This document shows, one piece after another, positions 1-56,582 of a stretch of DNA of 64,000 nucleotides; the stretch's first letter is position 1; every line of letters begins with the position of its first letter. The notes below the pieces were generated by a model. The model was given only the letters and a program-made list of their open reading frames with translations. It was not told the origin of the DNA and did no database searches. A program made the position numbers and the translations under genes. The stretch comes from an uncultured Clostridia bacterium (GTDB taxonomy: Bacteria > Bacillota > Clostridia > Oscillospirales > Acutalibacteraceae), in the NCBI GenBank assembly GCA_947585745.1, contig CANPXF010000001.1, positions 186,001 to 250,000 on the forward strand, read 5' to 3'.

Positions 1-127
1 GTCTGATGTGGATATATAAAAAACGCAGAACTTATCCTCTCTATCCAAAATAAGACATAGGCTCAAACGTCTGGGGGAGATGAATTTCCCGAGAGGGACT
101 GCATATCTGACGAAGAGATAAAAAAAT
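1..127 (-). repeat. Dispersed 78-bp repeat, unit 1 (reverse)
   Basis: One full unit of the dispersed family (core 25-102) in reverse orientation, preceded at 1-20 by the tail of another unit that continues outside the window. The core begins GCAGAAC and ends GGGACTGC. The right-hand tail (CTGACGAAGAGATA and following A-rich bases) runs directly into the -35 box of the rimP promoter. The same tail-to-promoter junction is seen at 7835-7868. Confidence 0.85.
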
Positions 128-129
128 AC

Positions 130-158
130 TTGCAATTTTTGGAAGATAGTGATATAAT
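130..158 (+). promoter_or_regulatory. Sigma-A type promoter of the rimP operon
   Basis: TTGCAA at 130-135, 17-base spacer, TATAAT at 153-158. It sits immediately after repeat unit 1, and the first bases of the -35 element belong to a string shared with the other promoter-proximal repeat copy. The leader holds a short hairpin (GAGCAA at 190-195 with TTGCTC at 201-206). Confidence 0.75.
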
Positions 159-241
159 TTTAGTGTTGAATATTGAAAGTATGAGGAGTGAGCAAACAGC
201 TTGCTCCTTTCTGTTTGACAAATAACACAGGAGGTTATCAT

Positions 242-715
242 ATGTCAAAAAAGGGCAATACTGTAGAAAGAGTATGGGATATTGCCGAACCGATTGCAAA
301 AGAATTAGGGCTTGAGCTTTGGGACGTCCGCTACGTTAAGGAAGGCGCCGACTATTTTCTGAGGATTTTTATTGATAAAGACGGCGGTGTTGACATCAAC
401 GACTGCGAGGCGCTTTCGCGGGCGGTTGACAAACCGCTTGACGACAATGACCCTATTTCAAACCCGTATATTCTTGAGGTGTGTTCTCCGGGGCTTGAAA
501 GACCTCTTGTGAGAGAAGAGCATTTTTTGCGTTTTATAGGCGCGGACATTAAGGTTAAAATGATTCGTCCGATTGAAGGCGTCGGCAAAGAATTTAAGGG
601 AGTTCTTACGGACTACAACTCGGGCGAGGTTACAATAACAGACCACAGCGGAGAAAATCAAATGACAATAAACGTCAAACAAACCGCGTGGATTAAGCTT
701 GATGATTTTGATTAA
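242..715 (+). CDS. rimP: Ribosome maturation factor RimP
   Basis: Assists late 30S subunit maturation. The 157-residue protein has the usual RimP length and two-domain order: an N-terminal alpha/beta domain with the family motif Y-I-L-E-V-C-S-P-G-L-E-R-P-L (about residues 77-90), then a small SH3-like C-terminal barrel. I chose ATG 242 because AGGAGG at 229-234 lies 7 bases upstream; an upstream GTG at 188 would add 18 residues unlike the family and has no ribosome binding site. It is the first gene of the classic rimP-nusA-ylxR-ylxQ-infB-rbfA operon. Confidence 0.95.
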   Translation: MSKKGNTVERVWDIAEPIAKELGLELWDVRYVKEGADYFLRIFIDKDGGVDINDCEALSRAVDKPLDDNDPISNPYILEVCSPGLERPLVREEHFLRFIGADIKVKMIRPIEGVGKEFKGVLTDYNSGEVTITDHSGENQMTINVKQTAWIKLDDFD

Positions 716-751
716 GAAAGAAAATTTACTTAGCATTGTGCAAGGAAAGGA

Positions 752-1846
752 ATGGTCAGAAAAATGAACAACAAGGAATTATTCACAGCGCTCTCCCTGC
801 TTGAAAAGGAAAAGGGCATACCTATGGACTATATGATTGAGCAGATTGAAAGAGCGATTAAGGTTGCGTGCAAGAACTCCTACGGCGGAAACGAAAACGT
901 GGTGTTTAAAATTATTCCCGAGAAAAACACCTTTGACGTAAAGCTCGTTAAAACCGTTGTCGAGGAAGTAGAGGACAAAAACTTTGAAATCTCGCTTGAA
1001 GAAGTGAGAAAAAAGAGGAAGAAAATTGAAATCGGCGACCAGTACGAGGCTCCGCTCGACCCGAAACAGCTCGGTCGTATCGCCGTTCAGACCGCGAGGA
1101 GCGTTATCCGCCAGGGTATCCGCGACGGCGAAAAGGGACAAATGCTACAGGAATTTAAGAGCCGTCTCGGCGAGCTTGTCACGGCTGTTGTAGAGCGCGT
1201 TGACCCCGTAAACGGAATGGCTACCATTCGTATCGGAAAAGCTGTCGCAACTCTGCCGAAAAGCGAGCAGGTCGGCGACCGTGTTCTTAAAGACGGCGAC
1301 AACATTAAGGTTTTGGTTGCCGATATTAAGGACAACGAGCGCGGTCCGAGAGCGATGATAAGCCGTACAAATCCCGAGCTTGTAAAACGTCTTTTCGAGC
1401 AGGAGGTTCCTGAAATTTACGACGGCACGGTCGAGATTAAGGCTATCTCGCGCGAGGCGGGAAGCAGAACAAAAATGGCGGTGCTCTCAAACGACGAAAA
1501 CATCGACGCAATCGGCTCCTGTATTGGAACACGAGGCGACAGAGTTAACGAAATTGTTGCGGAGCTCGGCGGAGAAAAAATCGACATTATCGAGTTCAGC
1601 GACGACCCCGAAAAGTACATCGCCGCCGCGCTTTCCCCCGCGACCGTTTTAAAAGTTGACATCATTGACGAAAGCGCAAAAAGCTGTAAGGTAACCGTTC
1701 CCGACGGACAGCTTTCGCTCGCTATCGGCAACAAGGGACAGAACGCGCGCCTTGCCGCCCGCTTAACAGGCTGGAAAATCGACATTCGCCCCGAGTCGGG
1801 CTTTTACGGCGAGGACGAAGACGAAACAACGGAAACCGAGGAGTAA
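752..1846 (+). CDS. nusA: Transcription termination/antitermination factor NusA
   Basis: Binds RNA polymerase and nascent RNA to modulate pausing, termination and antitermination. Visible order: N-terminal polymerase-binding domain (about 1-125), S1 domain (about 130-200, containing G-M-A-T-I-R-I-G), two KH domains (about 205-350, including G-S-C-I-G-T-R-G-D-R and A-I-G-N-K-G-Q-N-A-R), then a short acidic tail. At 364 residues it is the short Gram-positive form without the proteobacterial C-terminal repeats. ATG 752 fits AAGGA at 742-746; ATG 764 is the start usually seen in homologues and is an equal alternative. It lies 36 bases after rimP. Confidence 0.95.
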   Translation: MVRKMNNKELFTALSLLEKEKGIPMDYMIEQIERAIKVACKNSYGGNENVVFKIIPEKNTFDVKLVKTVVEEVEDKNFEISLEEVRKKRKKIEIGDQYEAPLDPKQLGRIAVQTARSVIRQGIRDGEKGQMLQEFKSRLGELVTAVVERVDPVNGMATIRIGKAVATLPKSEQVGDRVLKDGDNIKVLVADIKDNERGPRAMISRTNPELVKRLFEQEVPEIYDGTVEIKAISREAGSRTKMAVLSNDENIDAIGSCIGTRGDRVNEIVAELGGEKIDIIEFSDDPEKYIAAALSPATVLKVDIIDESAKSCKVTVPDGQLSLAIGNKGQNARLAARLTGWKIDIRPESGFYGEDEDETTETEE

Positions 1847-1852
1847 TTCGTT

Positions 1853-2155
1853 TTGAAGCAGAAAAAAATACCGTTGAGAAAATGCACGGGTTGCGGTGAA
1901 ATGAAGCCGAAACGGGAGCTTGTCAGAGTTGTCAAGGCTCCCGACAAAAAGAGCGAAAACGGCGAAATCACGGCTAAGGGCGAAATAACTCTCGACCTCG
2001 ACGGAAAAAAACCGGGCAGAGGCGCGTACGTATGCCGAAACACGGAGTGCTTTGAAAAAGCGGTCAAGGCAAGACGTTTTGAAAAGGCCTTTAAATCGCA
2101 GATACCCGACGAGGTTTTTGCCGGCATAAAAGAGGAGCTGGAAAAAATTGAATGA
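1853..2155 (+). CDS. ylxR: YlxR family RNA-binding protein (RnpM)
   Basis: Small basic protein of the YlxR/DUF448 family, known in Firmicutes as an RNase P-associated or nucleoid-associated regulator. The 100-residue protein starts with TTG at 1853 and carries the family N-terminus with R-K-C-T-G-C-G-E (residues 8-15) and the later G-R-G-A-Y-V-C element. It has an insertion of about 10 charged residues (K-K-S-E-N-G-E-I-T-A region) between the two conserved halves. It lies 6 bases after nusA and overlaps ylxQ by 8 bases, so it is co-translated within the operon. Confidence 0.9.
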   Translation: MKQKKIPLRKCTGCGEMKPKRELVRVVKAPDKKSENGEITAKGEITLDLDGKKPGRGAYVCRNTECFEKAVKARRFEKAFKSQIPDEVFAGIKEELEKIE

Positions 2156-2471
2156 TAAAATTCTCGGACTTCTCGGCATATGCAGACGCGCGGGCAAGCT
2201 GACAGTCGGAAACGACGCTGTTATCGAAAATGTCCAAAACGGCAAAGCGAGGCTCGTGATTGTAAGCAACGACATATCTTTAAACACGGAAAAAAAGCTT
2301 AAAAACGCGTGCGCTTCGGCGAATACGGAGCTTTTAAAGCTTAACAGAACCCGAGATGAGCTTTCAGACGCGCTTGGAAAATTCTGCGCGGTTGTCGCCG
2401 TGTGCGACGACGGTTTTTCAAAAAAGCTCATATCGCTTATACAAAATGAAACAGGAGGTAAGTGTCTATGA
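2148..2471 (+). CDS. ylxQ: YlxQ, L7Ae-like ribosomal protein
   Basis: L7Ae/L30e-fold RNA-binding protein, a member of the K-turn binding family always found between ylxR and infB. The 107-residue chain opens with the family pattern [13 protein letters not shown] (8-20). It starts at TTG 2148 with AGGAG (2132-2136) a suitable distance upstream, overlapping ylxR by 8 bases, and ends 4 bases inside infB. The specific RNA ligand in this organism cannot be told from sequence. Confidence 0.9.
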
Positions 2472-4834
2472 TAAAATATAAGGTAAAAGAAGTAGCTGAC
2501 GATTTTAACGTAAAAAGCAAAAAGATTACTGAAATCCTTTCTGAAAAATGCGGTGTTAACAAAAAATCAATGACCTCTTTGGACACGGAGGAGCTTAACG
2601 TCATTTTTGACGTTATGACAACGGAAAACGAGGTTAAGGATTTTTCCGAATATTTCGCGGTCCGCGACAAGGCGATCGAGGAATACGAAAAGCAGGTTGC
2701 ACAGGAAAAGAAAGAAGAAAAATCCACCCGCAAGGCTATTCCTGTTGAAAAGCCCGCAAAAAAACAGTCCAAGAATAAAACCGCAAAGGCAAAAGGTCCG
2801 CGTGAAAAGTTTGAAACCGTCGAGGTTGTCAACACAATCGAGGAGGAGCGAAGCGACCACCGCTCCAACAGACGAGTTATCGACACGCGCCAGACTAATG
2901 TTGACGTGGAAAGATATAACCAAAAATACGACGATATGGCGAACGAAAAGCTCAGCCGTAATCAGGATATAAGCAAAAAGGAAAAATTCTCGAACCGCGC
3001 GCGCAAACAGCGCCAAAGACGCGGAGGAAAGCGTGAAACGGAGGCGCAAAGGCTCGCGCGTATTGAAAAACAGCGCAAGGAGCGTTCTATCACAATCACA
3101 GTTCCCGATGAGATTGTGGTTTCGGAGCTTGCCTCACGTCTTAAAGCCACCGTTGCTGAGGTCGTTAAAAAGGCGTTTTTAATGGGCTCGATGATTACGG
3201 CGAACGATACTATCGACTTTGACACAGCCGAGCTTCTCGCTATGGAGTTTAACGCTAAGGTTGAAAGAGAGGTAGTCGTTACAATCGAGGAGCAGATTAT
3301 CGACGACAGCGAGGACGACGACGCTAACCTCGTAACGAGAGCGCCCGTAGTAGTTGTAATGGGACACGTTGACCACGGTAAGACCTCTATCCTCGACGCT
3401 ATCCGCCACGCTAACGTAACAGAGGGCGAAGCGGGCGGTATCACCCAGCATATCGGCGCGTACCGCACAATGGTAAACGACCGTCCGATTACCTTCCTCG
3501 ACACCCCGGGACACGAGGCGTTTACAACGATGCGCGCAAGAGGAGCGCAGGCGACGGATATAGCCATTTTGGTAGTAGCCGCAGACGACGGAATTATGCC
3601 GCAGACAATCGAGGCGATTAACCACGCGAAAGCGGCGGGCGTTACCGTAATTGTCGCAATCAATAAGATAGATAAACCGGGAGCAAATCCCGAACAGGTA
3701 AAACAACAGCTCACGGAATATGAGCTTATCCCTGAGGAATGGGGCGGAGATGTAATATGCGTGCCTGTTTCCGCAAAGACTAAGGAGGGACTTGACGAGC
3801 TTTTGGAGAGCGTTCTGCTTGTCGCGGAAATGAAAGAACTCAAGGCTAACCCCGACAGAGCGGCAAAGGGTATCGTAATTGAGGCGCGCCTTGACAAGGG
3901 CAGAGGTCCTATCGCGACCGTTTTGGTACAAAACGGTACCTTAAACGCGGGCGACACGGTAGTCGCGGGAACCTGCCTGGGCAGAGTACGCGCTATGACG
4001 AACGACAAGGGCGAAACGGTTAAAACCGCCGGTCCGTCTGTTCCCGTTGAGATTATCGGTCTTGACGAGGTTCCCGTGGGCGGAGATGTGTTCAACTCGG
4101 TTACAAACGAACACCTCGCGCGCCAGCTTGTTAACCAGAGAAAGAACGAGCGCAAGGAGGAAATCTTCAACGCTCAGACCAAGGTTACTCTCGACAACCT
4201 GTTCGACCAGATGAAGCAGGGCGAAATGAAAGAGCTTAAAATTATCGTTAAGGCAGACGTTCAGGGCTCGGTTGAGGCTGTCCGCCAAAGTCTTGAAAAG
4301 CTCACAAACGAGGAGGTACGCGTTAACGTAATTCACGGCGCAGTAGGCGCGGTAAACGAAAGCGACGTTATGCTCGCCAACGCCTCAAACGCGATTATCG
4401 TAGGCTTTAATGTCCGCCCCGACGCGAACGCGCAGAGTATCGCGGAGCGCGACGGCGTGGATATGCGTATGTACCGTGTAATTTACGACTGTATCGAGGA
4501 AATTGAATCCGCTATGAAGGGTATGCTCGCTCCCAAAACGAGAGAGGTTGAACTCGGAACAGCGGAAGTCAGAAACGTTATCAAGATTAAGAGCGTCGGT
4601 ACGGTTGCGGGCTCATACGTCAAGAAAGGCAAAATCCGGCGCAACGGTATGGTACGGGTTGTCCGCGACGGCATTATTATTGCGGACGACAATATCGCCT
4701 CACTTCAGAGATTTAAGGATTCCGTCAAGGAGGTAGCCGAGGGCTACGAGTGCGGTATCTGCCTTGAAAAGTTCAGCGACCTCAAGGAGGGCGACATCTT
4801 CGAGGTTTACGCTATAGAGGAATACAGAGATTAA
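2468..4834 (+). CDS. infB: Translation initiation factor IF-2
   Basis: GTPase that places initiator fMet-tRNA on the 30S subunit and promotes subunit joining. The 788-residue protein has an N-terminal IF2N domain (about 1-50), a long basic, low-complexity linker (about 75-190), a second IF2N domain, and the G domain with G1 GHVDHGKT (299-306), G3 DTPGH (345-349) and G4 NKID (399-402), followed by the beta-barrel and C-terminal fMet-tRNA-binding domains. ATG 2468 is chosen because AGGAGG at 2453-2458 is 9 bases upstream; GTG 2462 is too close. It overlaps ylxQ by 4 bases. Confidence 0.97.
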
Positions 4835-4850
4835 CAGGCGTTGGCATAGG

Positions 4851-4879
4851 AAAACCGCTGTTTTGAATCCCGCGGTTTT
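4851..4879 (+). other. Intra-operon hairpin between infB and rbfA
   Basis: AAAACCGC at 4851-4858 pairs with GCGGTTTT at 4872-4879 around a 13-base loop, inside the 78-base gap before rbfA. There is no U-run, so it is more likely an RNA processing or stability element than a terminator. Confidence 0.45.
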
Positions 4880-4912
4880 CGCCGTCAACTGCCTGAAAAC
4901 GGAGTTGTAAAT

Positions 4913-5254
4913 ATGTCAGGACACAAATTAGAAAGAACTACCGAGGATATAAAGCGCGAATTGACCGCGATTTTCCGCGAGCTTAAAGACCCGCGCGTAA
5001 AAGACGCGTTTATCTCGATTATCAGAGTTGACGTTACAAACGACCTCTCCTACTGTACGGTTTACGTCAGCGCAATCGAGGGAATAGAGCGTTGCAAAAA
5101 GGCGTGTAAGGGGCTTGACAGCGCGTCGGGATTTATCCGCCGTGAGCTGGGACAAAGGCTAAGATTAAGGCACGTTCCCGAGCTTATTTTCACGGCGAGC
5201 GACAGCATAGAGTACAGCGCGAATATATCGAGAATTTTAAAGGAATTGGAATAA
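4913..5254 (+). CDS. rbfA: 30S ribosome-binding factor RbfA
   Basis: KH-like cold-shock and 30S maturation factor that acts on the 5' end of 16S rRNA. At 113 residues it is the normal length and has the family pattern E-L-K-D-P-R-V (residues 22-28), followed by L-S-Y-C-T-V-Y-V-S. It starts at ATG 4913 with a modest GGAG site, 78 bases after infB and 9 bases before nrnA, keeping the usual infB-rbfA-nrnA-truB order. Confidence 0.95.
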   Translation: MSGHKLERTTEDIKRELTAIFRELKDPRVKDAFISIIRVDVTNDLSYCTVYVSAIEGIERCKKACKGLDSASGFIRRELGQRLRLRHVPELIFTASDSIEYSANISRILKELE

Positions 5255-5263
5255 GGGAAAATT

Positions 5264-6190: not shown

Positions 6191-7071
6191 ACGGCGTTCT
6201 TTTAACAGATAAGCCAAAGGGACTTACCTCGTTTGACGTTGTGGCGCAGGTTCGCCGTTTAACAGGTCAGCGCAAAATCGGTCATACAGGGACTCTCGAC
6301 CCGAACGCGACGGGAGTTCTTCCTCTTTTGCTCGGAAACGCAACAAAGGCGCAGGACATTATCCCGAACCGCGACAAGGAATATATCGCCGATTTTAAAC
6401 TCGGATTGACGAGCGACACGCTCGACATCTGGGGGAATTTAAAAATCGGGCAAAGCGACGTAACAAAAAGCGAAATTGAAAAGGCAATAGAAAATTTCCG
6501 CGGAGAAATAAGCCAAATCCCTCCGATGTTTTCCGCCGTTTCGGTAAACGGACAGAGACTTTACAGCCTCGCCAGGCAGGGAATTGAAATCGAGAGAAAG
6601 AGCCGAAAGGTCACCGTATATGAGCTTACTCTTTTAAGCTTCAGCGAAAAGGAGCAGAGCGGAAGGCTTAAAGTAAAATGCTCCAAGGGTACATATATCC
6701 GTACTTTAATTGACGACATCGGTAAATCGCTCGGCGCGGGAGCGGTTATGAGCGCCCTGGACAGAACCTCGGCGTGCGGATTTTTAAAGGAAAACTGCCT
6801 CAGTCTTGAAGAAATAAAAACGCTTTCACAAAACGGAGAGCTTGAAAACAGGCTTATCAGCACGGAAAGCCTGTTTGAAAATTATAAAATTCTTCACGTC
6901 ACAAACGCTCAGGCAAAACGCTTTTTTAACGGCGGAGCGCTCGACATAGAGCGGACCGAGCTTAAAACGGCAGGCCACTCAAACGGCGAGATTTTCAGAA
7001 TAAAAGGCGAAAGCTTCGTCGGACTGGGAATAGCAGACAATTCCCTCATAAAAATCTACAAACATTTTTAG
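6187..7071 (+). CDS. truB: tRNA pseudouridine-55 synthase TruB
   Basis: Makes pseudouridine 55 in the T-loop of tRNAs. The N-terminal catalytic motif G-H-T-G-T-L-D-P-N-A-T-G (about residues 36-47) contains the essential Asp. K-G-T-Y-I-R-T-L and the C-terminal substrate-binding region are also present; the 294-residue length is typical. It ends the operon. Its TAG stop is also part of a repeated string (TTTTTAGCTTTTC) that recurs between the downstream repeat units, so the repeat array begins exactly at the gene end. Confidence 0.95.
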   Translation: MNGVLLTDKPKGLTSFDVVAQVRRLTGQRKIGHTGTLDPNATGVLPLLLGNATKAQDIIPNRDKEYIADFKLGLTSDTLDIWGNLKIGQSDVTKSEIEKAIENFRGEISQIPPMFSAVSVNGQRLYSLARQGIEIERKSRKVTVYELTLLSFSEKEQSGRLKVKCSKGTYIRTLIDDIGKSLGAGAVMSALDRTSACGFLKENCLSLEEIKTLSQNGELENRLISTESLFENYKILHVTNAQAKRFFNGGALDIERTELKTAGHSNGEIFRIKGESFVGLGIADNSLIKIYKHF

Positions 7072-7400
7072 CTTTTCCGCATCAATCCGTGCAGTCCCTC
7101 TCGGATAATTCATCTCCCCCAAACATTTCTGCCCCTATCTTACTTTGGATATGTAGGAAAAGTTCTGCGGTAGACTTTTTTAGCTTTTCTACATCAATCC
7201 GTGCAGTCCCTCTCGGAAAAGCATATCCACCCTACAATTGTGCCATTATCTTGTTTTGGATATAGAGGACAGGTTCTGCGGTAGACTTTTTAGATTTTCC
7301 ACATCAGTCCGTGCAGTCCCTATCGGACAATTCATATCCCCCAAACCTCTGTGCCTCTGTCTTGTTTTGGATATAGAGGATAGGTTCTGCTATAGACTTT
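7072..7400 (+). repeat. Dispersed repeat array, three forward units
   Basis: Three tandem forward units with cores at 7091-7168, 7203-7279 and 7313-7390, joined by 34-35 base linkers of the type GGTAGACTTTTTTAGC plus CATC(A/C)ATCCGT. All three start GCAGTCCCTCTCGG (the third CTATCGG) and end GTTCTGC. Within each core a CTCT/TATC...GATA hairpin-like element is conserved. No open reading frame is consistent across copies. Confidence 0.88.
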
Positions 7401-7410
7401 TTATAAAATA

Positions 7411-7450: not shown

Positions 7451-7510
7451 TTCATTTTTCTTTAGATAGTGAAAAATTTTTAGCGAAAAGCTTTATATTT
7501 TATATATTAA

Positions 7511-7550
7511 AAATCTCCTTATCTAACTTTAGATAGGGAGATTTATTTTT
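7511..7550 (+). terminator. Terminator-like hairpin (CTCC..TATCTAA family)
   Basis: AATCTCCTTATCTAA (7512-7526) pairs with TTAGATAGGGAGATT (7529-7543) with one wobble, followed by TATTTTT. The same hairpin sequence occurs at 32238-32269 and 56275-56306, each time next to dispersed repeat units. The interval 7551-7640 holds only the AT-rich module and TTAATTC heptamers. Confidence 0.6.
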
Positions 7551-7629
7551 CTGTTAATATAGACTTTTTTCAACTTTTCTGCTCTATCTTTTTTGAATAG
7601 AAATTAAAAGGTTACCTATAAATCTAATT

Positions 7630-7862
7630 CTTAATTCTTAATTCAAAAAACGCAGAACCTGTCCTCCCTATCCAAAACAAGATAGAGGAAGAAAGGTTTG
7701 GGGGAGATGAATTATCCGAAAGGGACTGCAATGTCTGATGTGGATATATAAAAAACGCAGAACCTGTCCTCTCTATCCAAAACAAGATAGAGGAAGAAAG
7801 GTTTGGGGGAGATGAATTGTCAGATAGGAGCTGAAATTTCTGACGAAGAGATAAAAAAATAC
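7630..7862 (-). repeat. Dispersed repeat array, two reverse units
   Basis: Two reverse units with cores 7652-7729 and 7757-7834. The first is type I (ends GGGACTGC); the second is type II (ends GGAGCTGA). TTAATTC heptamers (7629-7643) precede the first. The tail of the second unit matches the tail next to the rimP promoter and ends at the -35 box of the next promoter. Confidence 0.87.
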
Positions 7863-7945: not shown

Positions 7946-7974
7946 TCAAAACTAAAAGGCAAAGGACTGGTAAA

Positions 7975-11099: not shown

Positions 11100-11496
11100 T
11101 GAAAATTAAAAAATTAAGAATTAAGAGTTAAGAATTAAGAATTAGATTTAAAGGTAAACTCTTAATTCCTATTCAAATTCGATTTAGAGGAAAAGTTTCT
11201 TAAAAGTCTACCGCAGAGCTTTTCCTCCCTATCCAAAACAAGACAGAGGCTCAAACGTCTGGGGGAGATGAATTGTCAGATAGGAGCTGAAATGTCTGAC
11301 GAGGAGATTTAAAAATTAAGAATTAGATTTAAAGGTTAACTTTTATATCCTTTTCAAATTTGATTTAGAGGAAATGTTTGATAGGGATTTTTCGCAGAAC
11401 TTTTCCTCACTATCCAAAACAAGACAGAGGCACAACTGTATGGGGGATATGAATTATCAGATAGGAGCTGAAATGTCTGATGAAGAGATATAAAAA
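11100..11496 (-). repeat. Dispersed repeat array, two reverse units with AT-rich modules
   Basis: Heptamers (TTAAGAA/GAATTAA type, 11107-11145), then an AT-rich module ending in GATTTAGAGGAAAAGTTTCT, then a core at 11213-11290; the pattern repeats with a second core at 11394-11471. Both cores are type II (GGAGCTGA end). The second unit overlaps the 3' end of maf and supplies its last codons and stop. Confidence 0.85.
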
Positions 11497-30716: not shown

Positions 30717-31145
30717 TTTATATCTCCACGTCAGACATTGCAGTCCCTCTCGGACAATTCATTTCCCCCAAACGGTTCTTCCTCTATCTCACTTTGGATA
30801 GAGAGGACAGGTTCTGCGGTTTTTATATCTCTACGTCAGACATTGCAGTCCCTCTCGGAAAAGAATATCCCCCAAACCTCTGTGCCTCTGTCTTGTTTTG
30901 GATATAAAAGATAAGTTCTGCGAAAATTCCTATCAAACCTTTCCTCTAAATCCTTCTTGAAAAGGAATTAAAAAGTTACCGATAATTTAATTCTTAATTC
31001 TTAATTCTTAATTCAAACAACCTCCTGATAATTTGTTTCACGTGAAACTTTTATATCTCCACGTCAGACATTGCAGTCCCTCTCGAACAATTCATTTCCC
31101 CAGACGTTACTTCCTCTATCTCCCTTTGGATAGTAAGGATAATTG
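30713..31145 (+). repeat. Dispersed repeat array with parS, three forward units
   Basis: Cores at 30740-30817, 30845-30921 and 31073-31143; the last is truncated and lacks its GTTCTGC end. An AT-rich module (30930-30985) and TTAATTC heptamers (30990-31014) separate units two and three, followed by CAACCTCCTGATAATT and a parS site directly joined to unit three. Confidence 0.85.
31034..31049. promoter_or_regulatory. parS site 1 in the noc-parA interval
   Basis: TGTTTCACGTGAAACT, 15 of 16 matches to parS, with the perfect GTTTCACGTGAAAC palindrome core. The flanking 30 bases on both sides recur around parS site 2. Confidence 0.9.
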
Positions 31146-31372: not shown

Positions 31373-32113
31373 ATGCAAACTAAGAAAGCGTTAATTGGAT
31401 TTGTAGTTATTTTAACTATATTAATATTTTCATCTTGTACAAACGATAAAGCGAATTCAGATAACAATTTACCCGTATCTAATAAATCAAAAGTATCAAA
31501 TGTCGCCGATGAGAACAAAGAAATGGGTGCTTCAGAGTTTACGTTTTATCCAAGTTCTGATGGAAAAACTTGTTCAATAATGAGAGGCGACGATCAACCA
31601 AAACATGAAATTATGAAGATTCCTGAAAAAAACAAGGGTCGCACAGTTGTTGAGATTGAAAGCGAAGGGTTTAAGTTGGTCGAAGTATTTAACACGTTGA
31701 TTATTCCCGATACTGTAAAAAAAATAGGTGCAACCGCATTTATTTTTTGTCCTGATTTGAAAACACTTGAAATGGGAAACGGTGTTGAAGAGCTTGGTCA
31801 GGACGTGTTTTTAGGCTGTAAAAATCTTAAAACTATTACGTTGTCGAATAAACTTACCGAGATTCCTATGGGAGCTTTTCAAAATTGCGCAATAGAAACG
31901 GTTAATATTCCGTCAAGCGTTCAAAGCATTAAAGAAAATGCTTTTGCAATGTGTGAAAGCTTAAAGGAAGTACATATTCCTGGTTCAGTTAAAAAAATAG
32001 CGGATACTAACGGTCCTTTTGAGGACAGCCCCAATGTTACTATTTACGCTCCAAGCGGTTCATACGCTGAAAAATATGCTAAAAGTAAAAACATACCGTT
32101 TGTAGCAGAATAA
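31373..32113 (+). CDS. Secreted lipoprotein with leucine-rich (BspA/LRR_5) repeats
   Basis: 246 residues with a hydrophobic signal and a lipobox-like F-S-S-C around residues 20-23, a short linker, then about four LRR_5 repeats of the BspA type (pattern I-P-x-x-V-x-x-I-x-x-x-A-F) from about 85 to the end, finishing with Y-A-P-S-G-S-Y-A-E-K-Y-A. It is probably anchored on the outer membrane leaflet with a protein-binding surface. ATG 31373 is 7 bases after AGGAGA. It is clearly more AT-rich than its neighbours, sits between repeat arrays with duplicate parS flanks, and interrupts the usual noc-parA adjacency, so recent insertion is likely. Confidence 0.82.
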   Translation: MQTKKALIGFVVILTILIFSSCTNDKANSDNNLPVSNKSKVSNVADENKEMGASEFTFYPSSDGKTCSIMRGDDQPKHEIMKIPEKNKGRTVVEIESEGFKLVEVFNTLIIPDTVKKIGATAFIFCPDLKTLEMGNGVEELGQDVFLGCKNLKTITLSNKLTEIPMGAFQNCAIETVNIPSSVQSIKENAFAMCESLKEVHIPGSVKKIADTNGPFEDSPNVTIYAPSGSYAEKYAKSKNIPFVAE

Positions 32114-32237
32114 TTTTATATCTCTACGTCAGATATTGCAGTCCCTCTCGGAAAAGAATATCCCCCAAACCTCTGTGCCTCTGTCTTATTTTGGATAGGG
32201 AGGACAGGTTCTGCGAAAATCTTTATATATAAGTTAT

Positions 32238-32269
32238 CTCCCTACCTAAAGTTAGATAGGGAGTTTTTT
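32238..32269 (+). terminator. Terminator after the LRR lipoprotein
   Basis: CTCCCTACCTAA (32238-32249) pairs with TTAGATAGGGAG (32252-32263) with limited mismatch, followed by TTTTTT. Same hairpin family as 7511 and 56275. Confidence 0.65.
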
Positions 32270-32486
32270 ATATCTCCACGTTAGACATTGCAGTCCCTCT
32301 CGAAAAAGAATATCTCCCAAACCTCTGTGCCTCTGTCTTGTTTTGGATAGGGAGGATAGGTTCTGCTGTAGACTTTTTAAAAACTTTTCTTTTCTATCTG
32401 TTTTGAATCGAAAATAAAAGGTTACCTACAATTTAATTCTTAATTCTTAACTCTTAATTCTTAATTCAAACAACCTCCTGATAATT

Positions 32487-32502
32487 TGTTTCACGTGAAA
32501 CT
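32487..32502. promoter_or_regulatory. parS site 2 in the noc-parA interval
   Basis: TGTTTCACGTGAAACT, identical to parS site 1 and embedded in the same repeat context 1,453 bases away. Confidence 0.9.
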
Positions 32503-32713
32503 TTTATATCTCCACGTTAGACATTGCAGTCCCTCTCGGAAAAGAATATCCCCCAAACCTCTGTGCCTCTGTCTTGTTTTGGATACGGAGGATAGGTTCT
32601 GCGGTAGACTTTTTAAAAACTTTTCCGTTCTATCTGTTTTGAATCGAAAATAAAAGGTTACCCGCAAATCAAATTATTAATTCTTAATTCTTAATTTTTA
32701 ATTAAAAAACCCC

Positions 32714-35835: not shown

Positions 35836-36058
35836 GAATTAAAAATTAAGAATTAAGAATTAGATTTATAGGTAACCTTTTTATTCCTTAAAAAAATTGA
35901 ATTTAGAGGAAAAGTTTCTAAAAAGTCTACAGCAGAACCTGTCCTCCCTATCCAAAACAAGGCAGAGGCACGAAGTTTTGGGGGAGATGAATTGTCCGAG
36001 AGGGACTGCACGGACTGACGTGGAAAAGCTAAAATGTCTGACGTGGAAATATAAAAAA
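35836..36058 (-). repeat. Dispersed repeat, one reverse unit between serS and aqpZ
   Basis: Heptamer tract immediately after the serS stop (35837-35867), AT-rich module, core 35932-36009, and a doubled tail (CTGACGTGGAAA at 36015 and 36039). The tail ends against the aqpZ ribosome binding site, so the repeat makes up nearly the whole aqpZ leader. An upstream in-frame ORF through it is spurious. Confidence 0.87.
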
Positions 36059-36835: not shown

Positions 36836-36984
36836 ATTTTAATTCCCACTCAAAAAAGATAGAACGGAAAAGTTCTTAAAAAGTCTACAGCAGAACCTGT
36901 CCTCCCTATCCAAAGTGAGATAGAGGAAGAAACGTCTGGGGGATATGCTTTCCCAAGAAGGAATGCAATGTCTGACGTAGATAT

Positions 36985-36985
<1 letters not shown>
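36836..36985 (-). repeat. Dispersed repeat, one reverse unit
   Basis: AT-rich module (36840-36885), core 36890-36966 (variant end GAATGC in place of GGACTGC) and the CTGACGTAGATAT tail that touches the stop codon of the leftward lipoprotein gene. Confidence 0.85.
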
Positions 36986-39336
<2,351 letters not shown>

Positions 39337-46106: not shown

Positions 46107-46148
46107 ATATAAGATATAGACTGATAAAATCCGAAAGGAGTATCGAAT

Positions 46149-48746: not shown

Positions 48747-48782
48747 AACAGAACATAGAATAAACTATCAGGGGGTGATTTT

Positions 48783-51368: not shown

Positions 51369-51600
51369 GATTGATAAAAGGGCAATTAAATTTATATCTA
51401 AACAGCCAAAGCCACAGAGAGAGCGTATATTAAAAGCAATATATCAATTACCTGATGCAGGCGATATAAAAGCTATGAGGGGTAACGAGGGCTATTTTAG
51501 ACTTCGTGTTGGCGATTACAGGATAATTTATACAGTTAATGATAATGTTTTAATTGTCCGTGTAATTGAAGTCGGCAATCGTGGCGATATTTACAAATAG
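51352..51600 (+). CDS. RelE/ParE-family toxin
   Basis: An 82-residue basic protein with the RelE fold pattern: M-K-Y-R-I-E-I-D at the start, R-G-N-E-G-Y-F-R-L-R-V-G-D-Y-R-I-I-Y in the middle and R-G-D-I-Y-K at the end. Probably an mRNA interferase or gyrase poison of the RelE/ParE superfamily, neutralised by the upstream antitoxin. The R-x-R-x-G-D-Y-R motif favours RelE-type. Confidence 0.9.
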   Translation: MKYRIEIDKRAIKFISKQPKPQRERILKAIYQLPDAGDIKAMRGNEGYFRLRVGDYRIIYTVNDNVLIVRVIEVGNRGDIYK

Positions 51601-51695
51601 GGTGATTGGCATATAATATTCTCTTATATTGACAAAGATATTATTTTAATTGAAAAAATCGCGCCTCGTGGCGAAGTTTATAAGGGGGTTTAATT

Positions 51696-51893
51696 ATGTC
51701 ACCTATAAAAAAACAACTTTTTGATATGATTGATTGTCTGCCTGAACAGGAACAGACTTTACTTTTTGAAATTGCTAAAAGATTTGTAACTGATGATGTC
51801 GCAACGAAAGATGATATTTTAGCAATACAAACAGCACGCGAAGAATATACAAACGGTGAAACAGTTAGCCACAACGCAATTGATTGGGATTAA
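51696..51893 (+). CDS. Orphan antitoxin-like small protein
   Basis: 65 residues: N-terminal helix (M-I-D-C-L-P-E-Q-E-Q-T-L-L-F-E-I-A-K) and the tail E-E-Y-T-N-G-E-T-V-S-H-N-A-I-D-W-D, resembling small antitoxins of the RelB/Phd-like type. A GGGGG site precedes ATG. No toxin gene follows; a terminator does. It may be a solitary antitoxin or a remnant of a second module. Confidence 0.65.
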   Translation: MSPIKKQLFDMIDCLPEQEQTLLFEIAKRFVTDDVATKDDILAIQTAREEYTNGETVSHNAIDWD

Positions 51894-51916
51894 CTTACTA
51901 CCAAAATATGCACAAC

Positions 51917-51949
51917 AAGGCAAACTCTGAATATGGGTTTGCCTTTTTC
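51917..51949 (+). terminator. Terminator after the orphan antitoxin
   Basis: AAGGCAAAC (51917-51925) pairs with GTTTGCCTT (51937-51945) and continues into TTTCC. Confidence 0.85.
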
Positions 51950-52053
51950 CTTTCTTTATTGAAGCGACAAGAATTATAAATATCGCTACACATAACCGAA
52001 TAAAAAAACACCCCATACTTGCCTAAATCGCCTTATTATTTTATAGAAACAGA

Positions 52054-52100
52054 AAAACCGCCTTGTAAAATGCCTGCAAACGGCTTTACAATGCGGTTTT
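52054..52100 (-). terminator. Terminator of tRNA-Thr (likely bidirectional)
   Basis: AAAACCGCCTTGTAAA (52054-52069) with TTTACAATGCGGTTTT (52085-52100); on the minus strand it is followed by TTCTGTTTC. It lies 6 bases from the tRNA 3' end. The 51950-52053 stretch has no gene. Confidence 0.75.
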
Positions 52101-52105
52101 CTTTT

Positions 52106-52181
<76 letters not shown>

Positions 52182-52184
52182 GTT

Positions 52185-52239
52185 TATGCGGATTTCAAAA
52201 TCCGCATATTATAATAACATATTTGAATTTTAATTTCAA
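52185..52239 (-). promoter_or_regulatory. tRNA-Thr promoter and leader hairpin
   Basis: TTGAAA (52239-52234), 17-base spacer, TATTAT (52216-52211), followed by a perfect 5' leader hairpin TATGCGGATTT/AAATCCGCATA (52185-52208), 4 bases before the tRNA. Confidence 0.65.
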
Positions 52240-52285
52240 TAGTTTTTTAAATTAGTTTTCAGACAGCTTTCCTTAAGAATTTCTT

Positions 52286-52975
52286 TTAATGCTTGTATTT
52301 GTAAGTCCAGCCCGTAACTATGTTGTCCTCGTAGTTAAATTCTAACGTCTTTGCTCCCGAGCCGTAAATATACGCTGTTTTTGTTACTTTTTTTGCGTCG
52401 CCGTAAACTCGTTTAAGACGGGAGGCGAACATTCCGATTTTCGCGCCCTTGGCGGTTGCGACGTTTTTGCCCGTTACGGTTATAGATTCGACTCTTTCTA
52501 CATCATTTTTTATGTAGGTTACAATTGTAAAATCCTCGTATTCGTACTCCTGTCTGTTATTTGAAAGCGTGCTTGCAGAGTTGTCCTCTCCGATTGATTC
52601 AAAGACGTCGTCAATTTTTTCGTTAAGCTTTATAGTTTCTCCGTCATATACAAAGGTTAAATCCTCCGATGAAAAACTGCCCTTGACGGTTGTTACGACA
52701 ACTCGTGTGTTCGGCTTTGTTTTGCCCTGCGTCGGGGGCATAGTTGTGGGTTTTGTTTTCTTTTTCTTTTCCTTTTTTTCAGTTGGTTTGGTTTTTTTGG
52801 GAGGTGCTATCGTTTGTGACGCGATTACCTTAACGTCGCTTGTGGTTTCGGTAGACGCCTTCTTGGTTTCGGTTTTGGGTTTATATTCAGTTACGGTGGT
52901 TTCAGTTGCGGGACGCGCGCAGGAGGTCAGAAACACCGCCAATACTATAAGAAAAAATACCGCTGTTTTTTTCAT
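52286..52975 (-). CDS. Lipoprotein of unknown function
   Basis: 229 residues: signal and lipobox L-T-S-C (Cys at about 19), a long Thr/Lys/Pro-rich, low-complexity linker (about 22-100), then a C-terminal domain of about 130 residues with two similar halves around Y-E-Y-E-D and T-A-Y-I-Y-G, like SmpA/OmlA or BLIP-type beta repeats. Probably a surface-exposed binding protein; no function is recognised. It has its own promoter. Confidence 0.78.
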   Translation of the reverse strand: MKKTAVFFLIVLAVFLTSCARPATETTVTEYKPKTETKKASTETTSDVKVIASQTIAPPKKTKPTEKKEKKKKTKPTTMPPTQGKTKPNTRVVVTTVKGSFSSEDLTFVYDGETIKLNEKIDDVFESIGEDNSASTLSNNRQEYEYEDFTIVTYIKNDVERVESITVTGKNVATAKGAKIGMFASRLKRVYGDAKKVTKTAYIYGSGAKTLEFNYEDNIVTGWTYKYKH

Positions 52976-53013
52976 AATTTTTCTCCTAAAGGTTTTATAT
53001 TTATCTGAAAATT

Positions 53014-53042
53014 ATTATACCACATACTTCCGTTTTTAACAA
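53014..53042 (-). promoter_or_regulatory. Promoter of the lipoprotein gene
   Basis: On the minus strand TTGTTA (53042-53037), 17-base spacer, TATAAT (53019-53014), about 38 bases upstream of the start at 52975. Confidence 0.75.
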
Positions 53043-53084
53043 TATTTTTATATTTCGCAATCACGGACTATTTTATCCAAAATC

Positions 53085-53113
53085 TTGAAAACGAAAGATT
53101 AAAATAGTATAAT
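53085..53113 (+). promoter_or_regulatory. Promoter of the HAD phosphatase operon
   Basis: TTGAAA (53085-53090), 17-base spacer, TATAAT (53108-53113), 18 bases before ATG 53132. Confidence 0.75.
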
Positions 53114-53131
53114 TAATTTGAAGGTGGTATT

Positions 53132-53863
53132 ATGATTAGGAACATATTTTTTGACCTTGATGGAACTATGCTCCCGATGAATCAGGAACAATTTGTAAAG
53201 GTATATTTTACAGAGCTTGCCAAGCGCTTCTGCCCCAAGCTTAAAACAGAAAGCGAAAAGCTTATTAAGGCGGTTTGGAAGTCGACCGAGGCTATGGTAA
53301 AAAACGACGGAAAAGAGCCTAACGTCAACGCGTTTTGGAAAACCTTTTCTAAATTACTCGGAAAAGAAGTTTTAAAATACACAAAGGATTTTGACGATTT
53401 TTATAACCGAGAGTTTTCAGAATGCAAGTCCGTTTGCAAATATAATCCCAACGTTCCCGAAATTATGAGGGTTCTCAAAAACAAGGGGTACAGACTTATC
53501 GCGGCGACTAATCCGCTTTTTCCCGCGGTTGCCATAAACAACCGCATCAAATGGGCGGGACTTGACCCAAAAGCTTTTGATTTGATTACTACATATGAAA
53601 ATTTTACTACCTGCAAGCCTAATCCGAGATATTTTACGGAAATTATGGAAAAAATAAACGCAAAGCCCGATGAATGTCTTATGGTCGGCAACGATGTTGA
53701 CGAGGATATTCTCGCGAGCGAAAAGGCGGGAATTAAGAGCTATCTTATAACGGACTGCCTAATTAACCGCGGTGAGGCTGATATTTCAGGGTTTGAAAAC
53801 GGAGGTATGCGCGACTTCTTAATCTACGCGCGTATGCTTCCCGATGTAAAACAGGAGTTATAA
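53132..53863 (+). CDS. HAD-superfamily hydrolase
   Basis: 243 residues with motif I F-F-D-L-D-G-T-M (residues 6-13, catalytic Asp pair), cap domain (about 20-100), motif II A-A-T-N-P, and the motif III/IV G-N-D-V-D-E-D. Likely a small-molecule phosphatase (HAD subfamily I); the substrate is unknown. It stops directly at the next start (TAA-ATG) so the two are co-translated. Confidence 0.9.
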   Translation: MIRNIFFDLDGTMLPMNQEQFVKVYFTELAKRFCPKLKTESEKLIKAVWKSTEAMVKNDGKEPNVNAFWKTFSKLLGKEVLKYTKDFDDFYNREFSECKSVCKYNPNVPEIMRVLKNKGYRLIAATNPLFPAVAINNRIKWAGLDPKAFDLITTYENFTTCKPNPRYFTEIMEKINAKPDECLMVGNDVDEDILASEKAGIKSYLITDCLINRGEADISGFENGGMRDFLIYARMLPDVKQEL

Positions 53864-54301
53864 ATGTGGAATTTAATTAAGAGATACCTCGGCTTCGGCA
53901 TAGTTATCGCGTTCATTTATCTTGTTATGCCGATTTTCTTTCAGGGAGAAAATTATCGGTACGACGCTATCGAGTATCAATTCGTTTTCCCCGCGACGGC
54001 ATTGCTTTCGGGGCTTGCGTTTTCGTGGAAAAGGGGAGTTGACTTTACCTTTCCGCTTATCGCGCCGATAATTTATATAGCGAGCGTGCTGATTTACAGC
54101 CATTACTACCACTGGGCGATTTATGTTTTTATTTATTTAATTGTCGGAATGCTCGGCTGTTTTATCGGCGATATGGTCTATAAAAACAACCTCGAAGAAA
54201 AAGAACGTAAACAGCGGGAGAAAAAGCTTGAAAACGACAGCTATGAAATAAAAATCAGCAACATAACAGTAGAAAAAAAGGGCGAAAATCCCGAAAAATA
54301 A
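53864..54301 (+). CDS. Small membrane protein
   Basis: 145 residues with four hydrophobic segments (about 9-27, 41-57, 65-82, 85-103) and a charged, coiled C-terminal tail rich in Lys and Glu. No family recognised. It follows the HAD gene without a gap and precedes the beta-helix gene by 18 bases, likely in one operon. Confidence 0.75.
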   Translation: MWNLIKRYLGFGIVIAFIYLVMPIFFQGENYRYDAIEYQFVFPATALLSGLAFSWKRGVDFTFPLIAPIIYIASVLIYSHYYHWAIYVFIYLIVGMLGCFIGDMVYKNNLEEKERKQREKKLENDSYEIKISNITVEKKGENPEK

Positions 54302-54319
54302 ATAGAAAGGGAGATTTTT

Positions 54320-55522
54320 ATGAAGGCTAAAAGGATTACCGCGATTGCAATTTCGGCGCTTATGTTTATCTCCGCCGTGTCAATCGACGCGATTGCAAAG
54401 GAAAGCAAGGATGTTTTAAACGAGTACGGAAACCGAGTTTGCGGTACGCTTCAAAAAGACGGAAGTATTCTTTTTAAACCCACTCCCGGCGACGCTAAAG
54501 CGACGGGAAACGACCTTTACTATCTTTTGAGCGGAGATAAGAAAAAGACAATTGTCCTCCCCAAGAAAAAGATAAAAATTGAACGCGTGCTTTATCCCGG
54601 AAACAACACCACCTTAATCGCGACGGGCGCGACGATTATTCAGACTCAAAAGGATAAAACCCTCATAATTAACGACTGCGATAAAACTGACTACAAATCG
54701 CTCCAAAATGTCACAATCAAAGGCGGTAAATGGCATATTAACGGAAACAAAACCAATAAACGCCCGACCTCGACCTTCCGCTTTGCTCACGCGAAAAACA
54801 TCAAGCTTCAAAAATGCACGATTGACACCAACTACATAAGCCACGCCGTGGAGCTTATCGCCTGCAAAAACGTGACGATAGACGGCTGTAAAATTTTAGC
54901 GTCGGGAAAAACCAAATCGACCTCGCTCGAGGAGGCGGTTCAGATTGATATTGCAAGCAAGGCGACCGCTCCGTCCTGCGCGAAATTCGGTAAAAAATAC
55001 GTTAAAGGGCAGACCTGCAAAAATATCACGATAAAAAACAGCACAATCAGAGGAAGCAGGGGCGTCTGCGCGAACAGAACCGATACCGAAGGCGGAAAAT
55101 GGCTTAAAAAGCACCATTCCGACATCACCCTCACGGGAAACACCATTACGGGTATGACCTCGGAAGCGGTTGCGCTCCATAATACCGCGGGTATTTCCGT
55201 AAAAAATAACAAAATCACATCTAAAGGCAAGCGCACAAGCACGGTTTACACAATCGGTCTTAATATCGCAAGCTTTGGAAGCACAAAAGCAATCGCCAAG
55301 AAAAAGATAACGGTCAGCAACAACACCATTAAGGGCGGTCGTCAGGCGGTTCATATTGTTACCTACAGAAACACCGCTTCGGGCGCGTACGGAAGCCACA
55401 AATTCGGTACGGTTACAATAAAAAACAACAAGCTTTACGCAAAAAAGGGTAAAGGCAACTGCATTTTAACAAAACAATGCAAAAAAGTCATAAAAAGCAA
55501 AAACAAGCTCCACAAATGGTAA
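54320..55522 (+). CDS. Secreted right-handed beta-helix protein
   Basis: 400 residues with a classical signal peptide (cleavage near A-I-A-K, about 22-26) and, from about 95 on, successive coils of the N-x-T-I-x-G/N-V-T-I pattern, typical of pectate-lyase-like right-handed beta helices (for example N-V-T-I-D-G-C-K-I, N-I-T-I-K-N-S-T-I). No catalytic site was recognised. It may be a polysaccharide-active or surface adhesin. Strongly Lys-rich and repetitive. The 55523+ repeats begin 3-20 bases after the stop. Confidence 0.85.
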   Translation: MKAKRITAIAISALMFISAVSIDAIAKESKDVLNEYGNRVCGTLQKDGSILFKPTPGDAKATGNDLYYLLSGDKKKTIVLPKKKIKIERVLYPGNNTTLIATGATIIQTQKDKTLIINDCDKTDYKSLQNVTIKGGKWHINGNKTNKRPTSTFRFAHAKNIKLQKCTIDTNYISHAVELIACKNVTIDGCKILASGKTKSTSLEEAVQIDIASKATAPSCAKFGKKYVKGQTCKNITIKNSTIRGSRGVCANRTDTEGGKWLKKHHSDITLTGNTITGMTSEAVALHNTAGISVKNNKITSKGKRTSTVYTIGLNIASFGSTKAIAKKKITVSNNTIKGGRQAVHIVTYRNTASGAYGSHKFGTVTIKNNKLYAKKGKGNCILTKQCKKVIKSKNKLHKW

Positions 55523-55930
55523 TTTTATATCTCCACGTCAGACATTGCAGTCCCTCTCGGATAATTCATATCCCCCATACAGTTGTGCCTCTGTCTTGTT
55601 TTGGATATTGAGGACAGGTTCTGCTGTAGACTTTTTAGCTTTTCCTCGTCAGATATTGCAGTCCCTCTCGGACAACTCATCTCCCCCAAACCGTTCTTCC
55701 TCTATTTTGATTTGGATAGGGAGGACAGGTTCTGCTGTAGACTTTTTAGAAACTTTTCCGTTCTATCTTTTTTGAATAGGAATTTAAAGTTTACCCATAA
55801 ATCTAATTCTTAATTCTTAATTTTTAATTCTTAATTCTTCACCCGTGCAGTCCCTCTCGAACAATTCATCTCCCCCATACAGTTGTGCCGCTGTCTTGTT
55901 TTGGATAGGGAGGATAGGTTCTGCTATAGA
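55523..55930 (+). repeat. Dispersed repeat array, three forward units
   Basis: Cores at 55547-55624, 55658-55735 and 55847-55924; an AT-rich module and TTAATTC tract occupy 55740-55845. A hairpin, AAAGGAAACGTATGATA with its partner near TATCAAACGTTTCCTTT (55938-55988), follows the third unit and may act as a terminator. Confidence 0.87.
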
Positions 55931-55937
55931 CTAATGA

Positions 55938-55988
55938 AAAAGGAAACGTATGATAAGAAATTATTAATCCTATCAAACGTTTCCTTTA
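55938..55988 (+). terminator. Hairpin after the first repeat array
   Basis: A stem of about 17 bp with an 11-base loop and few mismatches, followed by ATATTTAAG. Likely terminator for the beta-helix operon, similar in position to 7411-7450. Confidence 0.55.
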
Positions 55989-56035
55989 TATTTAAGTTAA
56001 AAACATAGCAAAAGTTTTTTACATCCCAATTCTTA

Positions 56036-56510
56036 ATTTTTATATCTCCACGTCAGACATTTCAGCTTCTATCTGACATTTCATATCCCCCATACAATTG
56101 TGCCTCTATCTCACTTTGGATAGGGAGGACAGGTTCTGCTATAGACTTTTTAGCTTTTCCACGTCAGACATTGCAGTCCCTATCGGACAATTCATATCCC
56201 CTATACGTTTCTGCCTCTGTCTTGTTTTGGATAGTAAGGACAGGTTCTGCGAAAAATCCTTATATATAAGTTTTCTCCCTATCTAACTTTAGATAGGGAG
56301 ATTTTTATATATCTTCGTCATAGATGCAGTCCCTCTCTGAAGAACATATCCCCCATACAATTGTGCCTCTATCTCACTTTGGATAGGGAGGACAGGTTCT
56401 GCTATAGACTTTTTACTTTTAGAAAACCTTTCCTCTAAATCCGATTTGAAAAGGAAATAAAAGCTTATCTTTAAATCCAATTCTTAATTTTTAATTTTTA
56501 ATTCATAATT
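56036..56510 (+). repeat. Dispersed repeat array, three forward units
   Basis: Cores at 56062-56139 (type II, TCAGCTTC start), 56173-56250 and 56326-56402; a CTCC..GGAG hairpin (56275-56306) lies between units two and three; an AT-rich module and TTAATT tract fill 56410-56510. Confidence 0.87.
56275..56306 (+). terminator. Terminator-like hairpin within the array
   Basis: CTCCCTATCTAA (56275-56286) pairs with TTAGATAGGGAG (56289-56300), followed by ATTTTTATAT. Confidence 0.55.
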
Positions 56511-56582
56511 CAACCCCCATACGTTTGCCTCTTTATCCCAAGTGAGATAGAGGAAGAAACGTATGGGGGAAATGAATTTTAA
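56511..56582. repeat. Head-to-head half units forming a large dyad
   Basis: CCCCCATACGTTT (56514-56526) and AAACGTATGGGGG (56557-56569) are perfect 13-base arms; inside, CCTCTTTATC and GATAGAGG form a second stem. The left half is a forward half-unit and the right half a reverse half-unit of the dispersed family, fused in the middle. It lies just past the 3' end of the Yip1-like gene and could end its leftward transcript. Confidence 0.8.

Follow-up and report, generated by a model that had tools for sequence, protein, structure and literature searches.

Short non-coding repeats, probably mobile, at gene borders of a Ruminococcus-related gut bacterium and its relatives

The genome of a gut bacterium related to Ruminococcus (GCA_947585745.1, hereafter the host genome) contains more than 100 copies of a short repeat, which have been analysed here starting from a stretch of 64,000 nt of the contig CANPXF010000001.1 (positions 186,001-250,000), referred to as the window. 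The repeats are probably a family of short, non-coding and non-autonomous mobile elements of a mostly Ruminococcus-labelled clade, similar in behaviour to the mycobacterial interspersed repetitive units (MIRUs), with interiors that are shuffled by gene conversion among the copies.

All the 22 units that a first-pass annotation had recognised by eye in the window have been found at their coordinates (Table 1). A 25-nt pattern derived from the conserved end of the unit has 19 exact matches in the window and none in 100 shuffles, and nhmmer gives 23 matches, comprising the 22 units and a partial inverted unit (56528-56579). The family also occurs outside the window, as a slightly looser pattern allowing up to 2 mismatches identifies 125 places in the host genome (66 forward and 59 reverse) and the reversed pattern used as a control identifies 0. 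A sequence-only model built from 75 units detects the family in 8 of 60 genomes of the genus, the host included; due to the strict filters and the limit of 64 scored candidates per genome these counts are lower bounds, and weak carriers may have been missed. An exact-pattern scan of a collection of species genomes revealed 71 stretches from 8 assemblies titled Ruminococcus, Clostridia, Clostridiales or bacterium, 3 of which are the same as G074, G018 and G051 of the genus search. RUG14250, RUG13837, RUG522, G074, G018, G051, G005, G007, G015 and G048 are referred to below as the other carriers. The first-pass annotation knew of no named family that corresponds to the units. In a scan of the window at the gathering thresholds of Rfam a tRNA is the sole match and no described RNA family is assigned to the units. 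At the level of titles and abstracts the literature searched, which left most subscription papers outside, has no description of the family.

Conservation within the unit takes the form of linear motifs at fixed spacing. The unit had been described as a constant 77-78 bp; the core is indeed of 77 bp in 7 and of 78 bp in 14 of the 21 full units, but the true unit is longer and comprises this core and a tail of about 22-26 nt past its 'GCAG' end, giving a conserved length of about 104 nt (approximately 101-105 nt). The tail, TGACGWGGAGATATAAAA, reads on the strand opposite to the one formerly called plus, and it is this opposite strand that is informative. In this sense the layout of the unit is GCAGAAC-CTATCC-TATCCAAAA-...-GGGGGATAT-...-GATAGG-...-TGACGWGGAGATATAAAA. 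Of the 12 best pairs of dispersed copies in the host genome, 11 lose their similarity immediately past the A-run that closes the tail; the remaining pair, which is the most alike (C15/C8, 0.96), stays similar into the flank and is therefore considered part of a larger duplication. Beyond the non-tail end one of a few modules follows, which may be a GTAGACTTTTT stretch, an inverted-repeat module, an AT-rich module that ends in TTAATTC heptamers, or a further unit. T-runs are found next to many units. GCAG-NN-CCTATC, a candidate terminal inverted repeat, is present at both core ends in the host genome, one copy being degenerate in the other carriers, and the unit ends are only weakly inverted relative to each other. 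The standard tail is lacking in the unit at 55847. The separate AT-rich module with heptamers, also reported earlier, does accompany the units and is present at 5 sites of the window.

The units are inserted sequences, as they are absent from the same junctions of relatives: empty orthologous sites, which the first-pass annotation had suggested looking for, have been found upstream of murG, tpiA and rbfA and downstream of serS. Gene names other than those called by Pfam (murG, ftsW, rbfA, tpiA, galE etc.) are presumed on the basis of sequence recognition. The junction upstream of the gene was examined in a choice of 26 genomes for murG, 25 for tpiA and 25 for rbfA, with all the 8 carriers among them. 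A unit is situated directly upstream of murG in 2 genomes (G074 and G051), of tpiA in 3 (G005, G074 and G007) and of rbfA in G051, G074, G048 and G007, the last two having partial units. The distance from the tail edge to the ATG is 3-6 nt in all 9 of these units. Unit-free spacers of 30 bp or less are observed in 12 of 24 cases for murG, 8 of 21 for rbfA and 0 of 22 for tpiA, for which all the 22 are 54-271 bp long; the longest unit-free spacers overall reach 325 bp. The spacer between ftsW and murG is only 9 bp in G008, G016 and G069 and 22 bp in the host genome. The named assemblies RUG13837 and RUG14250 also have units before murG, rbfA and other genes and some of the insertions may therefore be shared by descent. 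Downstream of serS, about 218 bp that include a unit lie between the aligned blocks in the host genome, and about 34-65 bp with no unit in G015, G007, G005 and G018; other DNA follows in G008. A different repeated element, with an CTTTCCCC..GGGGGAAAGC inverted repeat near its end, is found before murG, tpiA or rbfA in G015 and G048 (L177, L178, L199 and L230).

The units are also polar, with the A/T-rich tail often placed at a gene border. In the other carriers 31 of 96 units have, at four adjacent positions immediately past the tail, an ATG that begins an open reading frame (ORF) of 60 codons or more, and 9 have one elsewhere up to 75 nt; 12 units present under two names were removed before this count and the count of GGAG tails given below. 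A second script with another gene rule finds an ATG 0-6 nt past the tail in 30 of 59 cases and past the other end in 0 of 44. In the host genome it is the stop codon that is found at -5 to +6 relative to the tail, in 19 of 82 cases as against 0 of 81 at the other end, and the same is seen in the sister species, Lapin-014 bin38 (16 of 85 against 0 of 72), giving 35 of 167 against 0 of 153 for the two combined. The Fisher p values of the polarity are ~1e-9 for the other carriers, 1e-6 for the host and 3e-5 for the sister species. Across these three sets the other end is found directly at a gene border in 0 of 197 cases; at 7-75 nt it meets stops in 15 of 44, 2 of 81 and 3 of 72 respectively. Tails that face a gene are directed to a convergent stop rather than a start in the host genome (61 vs 19), the sister species (56 vs 22) and HAN026 (7 vs 2), and to a co-directional gene start in the other carriers (55 vs 3). 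No ATG lies within 6 nt of the tail in the host genome (0 of 82), this site being seen in the other carriers instead. In six cases in the host genome the stop codon is inside the unit end; they include truB (7069-7071) and the ORF 36985-37701, so that the earlier statement of units lying only between genes is true of nearly all units and fails for these. The start-adjacent tails of the other carriers tend to include a Shine-Dalgarno sequence, GGAG being present in 20 of 32 of them and in 3 of 64 tails elsewhere (p 1e-9). In L137 and L022, which belong to two assemblies, a unit directly precedes what is seemingly the same tRNA gene, by sequence recognition.

Orthology is lost inside the units. 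Alignments longer than 2 kb between the host and the sister species are 86.5-97.6% identical with the units included, and in the 14 alignment gaps listed between them the numbers of units mostly differ. For 21 host units spanned by one alignment the median core identity is 0.78, and for random host-sister pairs it is 0.785. The 150 nt past the tail are 94-99% identical in 9 of these 21 pairs, with cores at 0.72-0.85; in the remaining 12 the flank past the tail is at 0.58-0.90, often since another unit sits there. Because arrays can shift, each host unit was also compared with the whole orthologous array of the sister species; the best match of 75 units is 0.823, equal to that of random draws of the same size (0.823), with 42 of the 75 units exceeding the mean of the draws (p 0.36). 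In 25 biallelic columns of 225 cores r2 is 0.158 at 0-7 bp, 0.034 at 8-15 bp and no higher than 0.010 at distances above 16 bp; of the column pairs, 88-100% show every one of the four combinations of alleles. Transitions and transversions number 295 and 358 in and around units, and 3032 and 1546 in the first 2 kb of the high-scoring segment pairs. The unit interiors look completely reshuffled since the split from the sister species. Though the assemblies are drafts, misassembly seems unlikely as the cause of the core divergence because the units share only short identical stretches.

The proposal of a folded unit under selection, made earlier from the constancy of length, is not upheld. RNAalifold predicts 0 pairs for 75 units (alignment A1) in the sense of the first-pass annotation and 0 pairs for 99 units (A2) in the opposite sense; both alignments are subsets, A2 having been cut from 129 distinct references with host and sister units thinned and some poor ones (such as L142:6389 and L040) left out. 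Candidate helices were taken from individual folds and from a scan over all column pairs. For each of five measures on each of three structures, between 28 and 281 of the 500 shuffles do at least as well, and P1, P2, the 3' hairpin and two alternative helices have no excess of compensatory base changes over shuffles. The candidate structures pair 80% of the cells as against at most 53% in slid versions, an excess that is expected as the structures were read off the consensus. Folding of 12 single units gives a mean z of about -0.8, two units being near -3, and mutual information between alignment columns appears to mirror species differences. A conserved fold as the basis of the family was rejected after these tests in both senses, and the steady length of units that vary in sequence is better accounted for by linear motifs that keep their spacing, together with exchange between copies.

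Among the three identities offered in the first-pass annotation the non-autonomous mobile element is the best; the other two are a processed RNA hairpin and a nucleoid-organising element, for which the clustering on one contig is the sole positive evidence. The description of a dispersed intergenic non-coding family with no transposase beside it stands, as none has been recognised. The units would then be moved by an enzyme acting in trans, and insertion beside gene borders would be tolerated because the tail restores a translation signal; in tight operons it is plausible that an insert between stop and start survives only with its own ribosome-binding site. Ectopic gene conversion among the many copies would shuffle the interiors and keep length and motifs constant. 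Partial copies starting at the tail are frequent among the listed matches of other genomes, recalling 5' truncation; retrotransposition was nevertheless rejected, as copies without the tail half also occur and reverse transcriptase is uncorrelated with the family. Carriage by phages or plasmids was also rejected, as viral contigs have no exact match of one unit pattern and the phage and plasmid collections have no blastn match of one unit. No autonomous partner was recognised in the 22 of 127 unpaired half units that were inspected.

Several observations weigh against a mobile family shuffled by gene conversion. Y1 transposase (PF01797) has 0 matches in the host genome, for which reason a REP/RAYT origin was rejected. 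When the 717 ORFs near units were clustered, inspection of the 25 largest clusters by eye revealed no transposase. The presence of reverse transcriptase is unrelated to that of the family, with 3 of 8 carriers and 3 of 9 non-carriers having it. T- or A-runs are present at both ends of the units with no clean duplicated target site that has an empty counterpart. A match of at least 0.92 to the orthologous sister array is seen for 4 of 75 host units. Tails are away from any border in 63 of 82 cases in the host genome and 69 of 85 in the sister species. GGAG is present in 103 of the 224 tails of the host, the sister species and HAN026 that have neither a start nor a unit in front of them, in 10 of 38 tandem tails and in 1 of 2 at a start; the Shine-Dalgarno tuning thus holds for the other carriers only, since GGAG belongs to this subfamily whatever the context. 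Finally, the gene calls are mechanical ORFs and the genomes are draft assemblies.

The differing interiors could also have arisen by very fast mutation and not by exchange between copies, which we consider rather unlikely. The variable columns are fully saturated, the spectrum is rich in transversions and shared conversion tracts have not been demonstrated. But the variation is largely within a limited set of shared alternatives, namely the 25 biallelic columns, and spares the conserved motifs; some copies at different sites are similar (0.91-0.93, apart from the pair within the larger duplication); and in the 9 pairs with 94-99% identity past the tail the flank is therefore not accelerated. 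There is a small chance that the units are fixed chromosomal docking sites, the interiors of which are swapped by a dedicated recombination that erases the ancestry shared with the sister species, with an outer end specialised as a portable signal, be it a ribosome-binding site or a stop. It is similarly improbable that the unit is a structured cis-acting RNA, such as a leader, riboregulator or processing hairpin, whose fold is selected and which regulates the neighbouring gene. Such a role would agree with the units of the other carriers being co-directional with the downstream gene and ending in its Shine-Dalgarno sequence, with their recurrence before murG, ftsW, rbfA, tpiA, galE and others in several species, with the strong conservation of short motifs and with the 2 of 12 units that fold at z near -3; the named helices out-pair the slid versions too, to the extent expected of structures derived from a consensus. 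The absence of predicted pairs in either sense, the attainment of every helix measure by at least 28 of 500 shuffles and the occurrence of the same genes without the element in other species argue against it.

Terminator-like or 3'-end elements that spread by insulating convergent genes could account for the mostly convergent stops that the gene-facing tails meet in the host, the sister species and HAN026 and for the T-runs adjoining many units. As the tails of the other carriers face starts, in gaps between co-directional genes in which a terminator would do harm, and no hairpin is conserved, we regard this as highly unlikely. Hardly any probability is assigned to chromosome-organising sites near the replication origin, for which the distribution along the host genome would speak. 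Contig C1, which makes up 13.9% of the genome and carries dnaA, dnaN, gyrA, gyrB and par genes, has 65 of the 100 places listed and hence at least 65 of the total of 125; among those listed 0 are on C2, C5, C6 and C7 and one each on C3 and C4, and six 20-kb stretches of C2, C3, C5, C6 and C7 have no nhmmer match. In the related carrier G074 the listed units are, by contrast, spread over 22 contigs. Gaps of more than 150 bp are commoner on C1, but most of the stretches compared were picked for having units, and the gene order is rearranged with respect to contig C13 of G016, which prevented the contigs from being arranged according to how far they lie from the origin. A foreign origin of the unit-free contigs was set aside, as C2 seems native, a 3-kb piece of it having matches in relatives of the genus at ~69-74%.

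MIRUs, which have a similar unit length and an intercistronic position, are the nearest described case, the likeness being one of description and not of sequence comparison; in the other carriers the units likewise lie at the start codon in the same direction as the gene (30 of 59 tails). They are said to be short mobile repeats whose insertion takes place at start codons and hardly affects the gene (PMC12548453). MIRUs are described as coupling an internal ORF to the downstream gene, whereas here such an arrangement occurs in 6 of 31 start-adjacent units with 3.1 expected, and a coupled ORF of this type was discarded; here it is instead the tail that provides a Shine-Dalgarno sequence, and in other species this end is used at stop codons. 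REP and REPIN sequences are dispersed intergenic repeats in tandem or inverted pairs, as are the present units, which differ from the REP/RAYT system in having no Y1 transposase in their own genome and no conserved palindrome. RUP is tied to an insertion sequence. Together with ERIC/IRU and Correia it resembles the present family in being a non-coding intergenic repeat of about 100 nt with around a hundred copies and no transposase of its own. RUP measures 107 bp and has 108 copies in S. pneumoniae, and end-to-end stem loops are described for several of RUP, ERIC, Correia and other elements (PMC2229807). The present family differs in having ends that are only weakly inverted and in lacking a conserved fold, and a partner insertion sequence was not found. 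The TAACTGA heptamers of Beggiatoaceae and cyanobacteria are intergenic direct repeats often near start codons (PMC4679880) and are comparable to the TTAATTC heptamers; there the heptamers occur alone, whereas here they accompany a separate 104-nt unit. In the main text of a review of prokaryotic miniature inverted-repeat transposable elements (PMC10969869) the terms start codon, ribosom, Shine, intercistronic, Clostrid and MIRU do not occur. As for classical elements of that type, orthologous element-free sites exist here at the four junctions described, and a related autonomous transposon was not seen by eye in the 25 largest ORF clusters, which cover the neighbourhood of units and not the whole genome.

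Table 1. Repeat units and accompanying modules in the window. The strand of a unit is the sense in which its tail reads TGACG-GGAG-TATAAAA.
Feature	Coordinates	Strand	Remarks
Unit	25..124	+	core 25-102 plus tail
Unit	7069..7168	-	core 7091-7168; tail end holds TAG stop codon of truB, 7069-7071
Unit, tandem	7181..7279	-	core 7203-7279
Unit, tandem	7291..7390	-	core 7313-7390
Unit	7652..7751	+	core 7652-7729
Unit, type II core	7757..7856	+	core 7757-7834
Unit, type II core	11213..11312	+	core 11213-11290
Unit	11394..11493	+	core 11394-11471; against sister species, flank past tail 98% identical, core 78%
Unit	30718..30817	-	core 30740-30817; tail adjoins inverted repeat and T-run after parB-type gene
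Unit, direct tandem	30823..30921	-	core 30845-30921
Truncated unit	31051..31143	-	core 31073-31143
Unit	32116..32214	-	core 32138-32214; tail directly at TAA stop of leucine-rich repeat (LRR) gene, 32111-32113
Unit	32268..32366	-	core 32290-32366
Unit	32504..32602	-	core 32526-32602; adjoins parS-like site
Unit	35932..36031	+	core 35932-36009; between serS and MIP-family gene
Unit	36890..36988	+	core 36890-36966; tail supplies TAA stop of ORF 36985-37701 (-)
Unit	55525..55624	-	core 55547-55624; tail directly at TAA stop 55520-55522
Unit, 111-bp tandem	55636..55735	-	core 55658-55735
Unit core without standard tail	55847..55924	-	abuts heptamers
Unit, type II core	56040..56139	-	core 56062-56139
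Unit	56151..56250	-	core 56173-56250
Unit	56304..56402	-	core 56326-56402
Partial unit with inverted half	56528..56579	+	new with respect to earlier list
AT-rich module ending in TTAATTC heptamers (family D7)	55741..55844	none	others 7562-7665, 32372-32475, 32608-32711, 56415-56518
Module with internal inverted repeat (family D10)	56260..56315	none	others 7500-7555, 32223-32278

The partial unit at the end of the window consists of half a unit fused to its own inverted copy, giving a hairpin-like sequence of ~56 nt. Arrays of TTAATTC heptamers are located at 7600-7650, 11120-11145, 30987-31013 and 55805-55840, by eye mostly on the same strand as the neighbouring unit. Other heptamer-like runs are found directly past stop codons in relatives, for example GGAATTC in G005 and AATTGAA in G008. 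In several of the other carriers (L126, L128, L144, L145, L022, L045 and L061) a second repeat family (like CGATTCCGCCTTT ... AACGGCGGG) separates a stop codon from the unit.

Two parS-like sites (GTTTCACGTGAAAC) have been identified in the window at 31035-31048 and 32488-32501, inside duplicated repeat DNA. They are situated between a ParB-type gene and parA and flank the LRR gene, which is of the BspA type. The corresponding stretches of G005 and G018 have a single parS-like site and no room for the LRR gene.

In this family the sequence itself tells how a bacterial repeat survives at gene borders, the same end of the repeat serving as the Shine-Dalgarno sequence in some species and lying at stop codons in others. 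With interiors in linkage equilibrium and surroundings that remain aligned, it also provides a natural and measurable system for short-tract exchange among dispersed copies. Provided that gene conversion is responsible, strain sequences could be used to determine its rate and the length of its tracts. Should the units instead be docking sites, they would constitute gene-border cassettes that shuffle themselves genome-wide and are able to retune the neighbouring genes.

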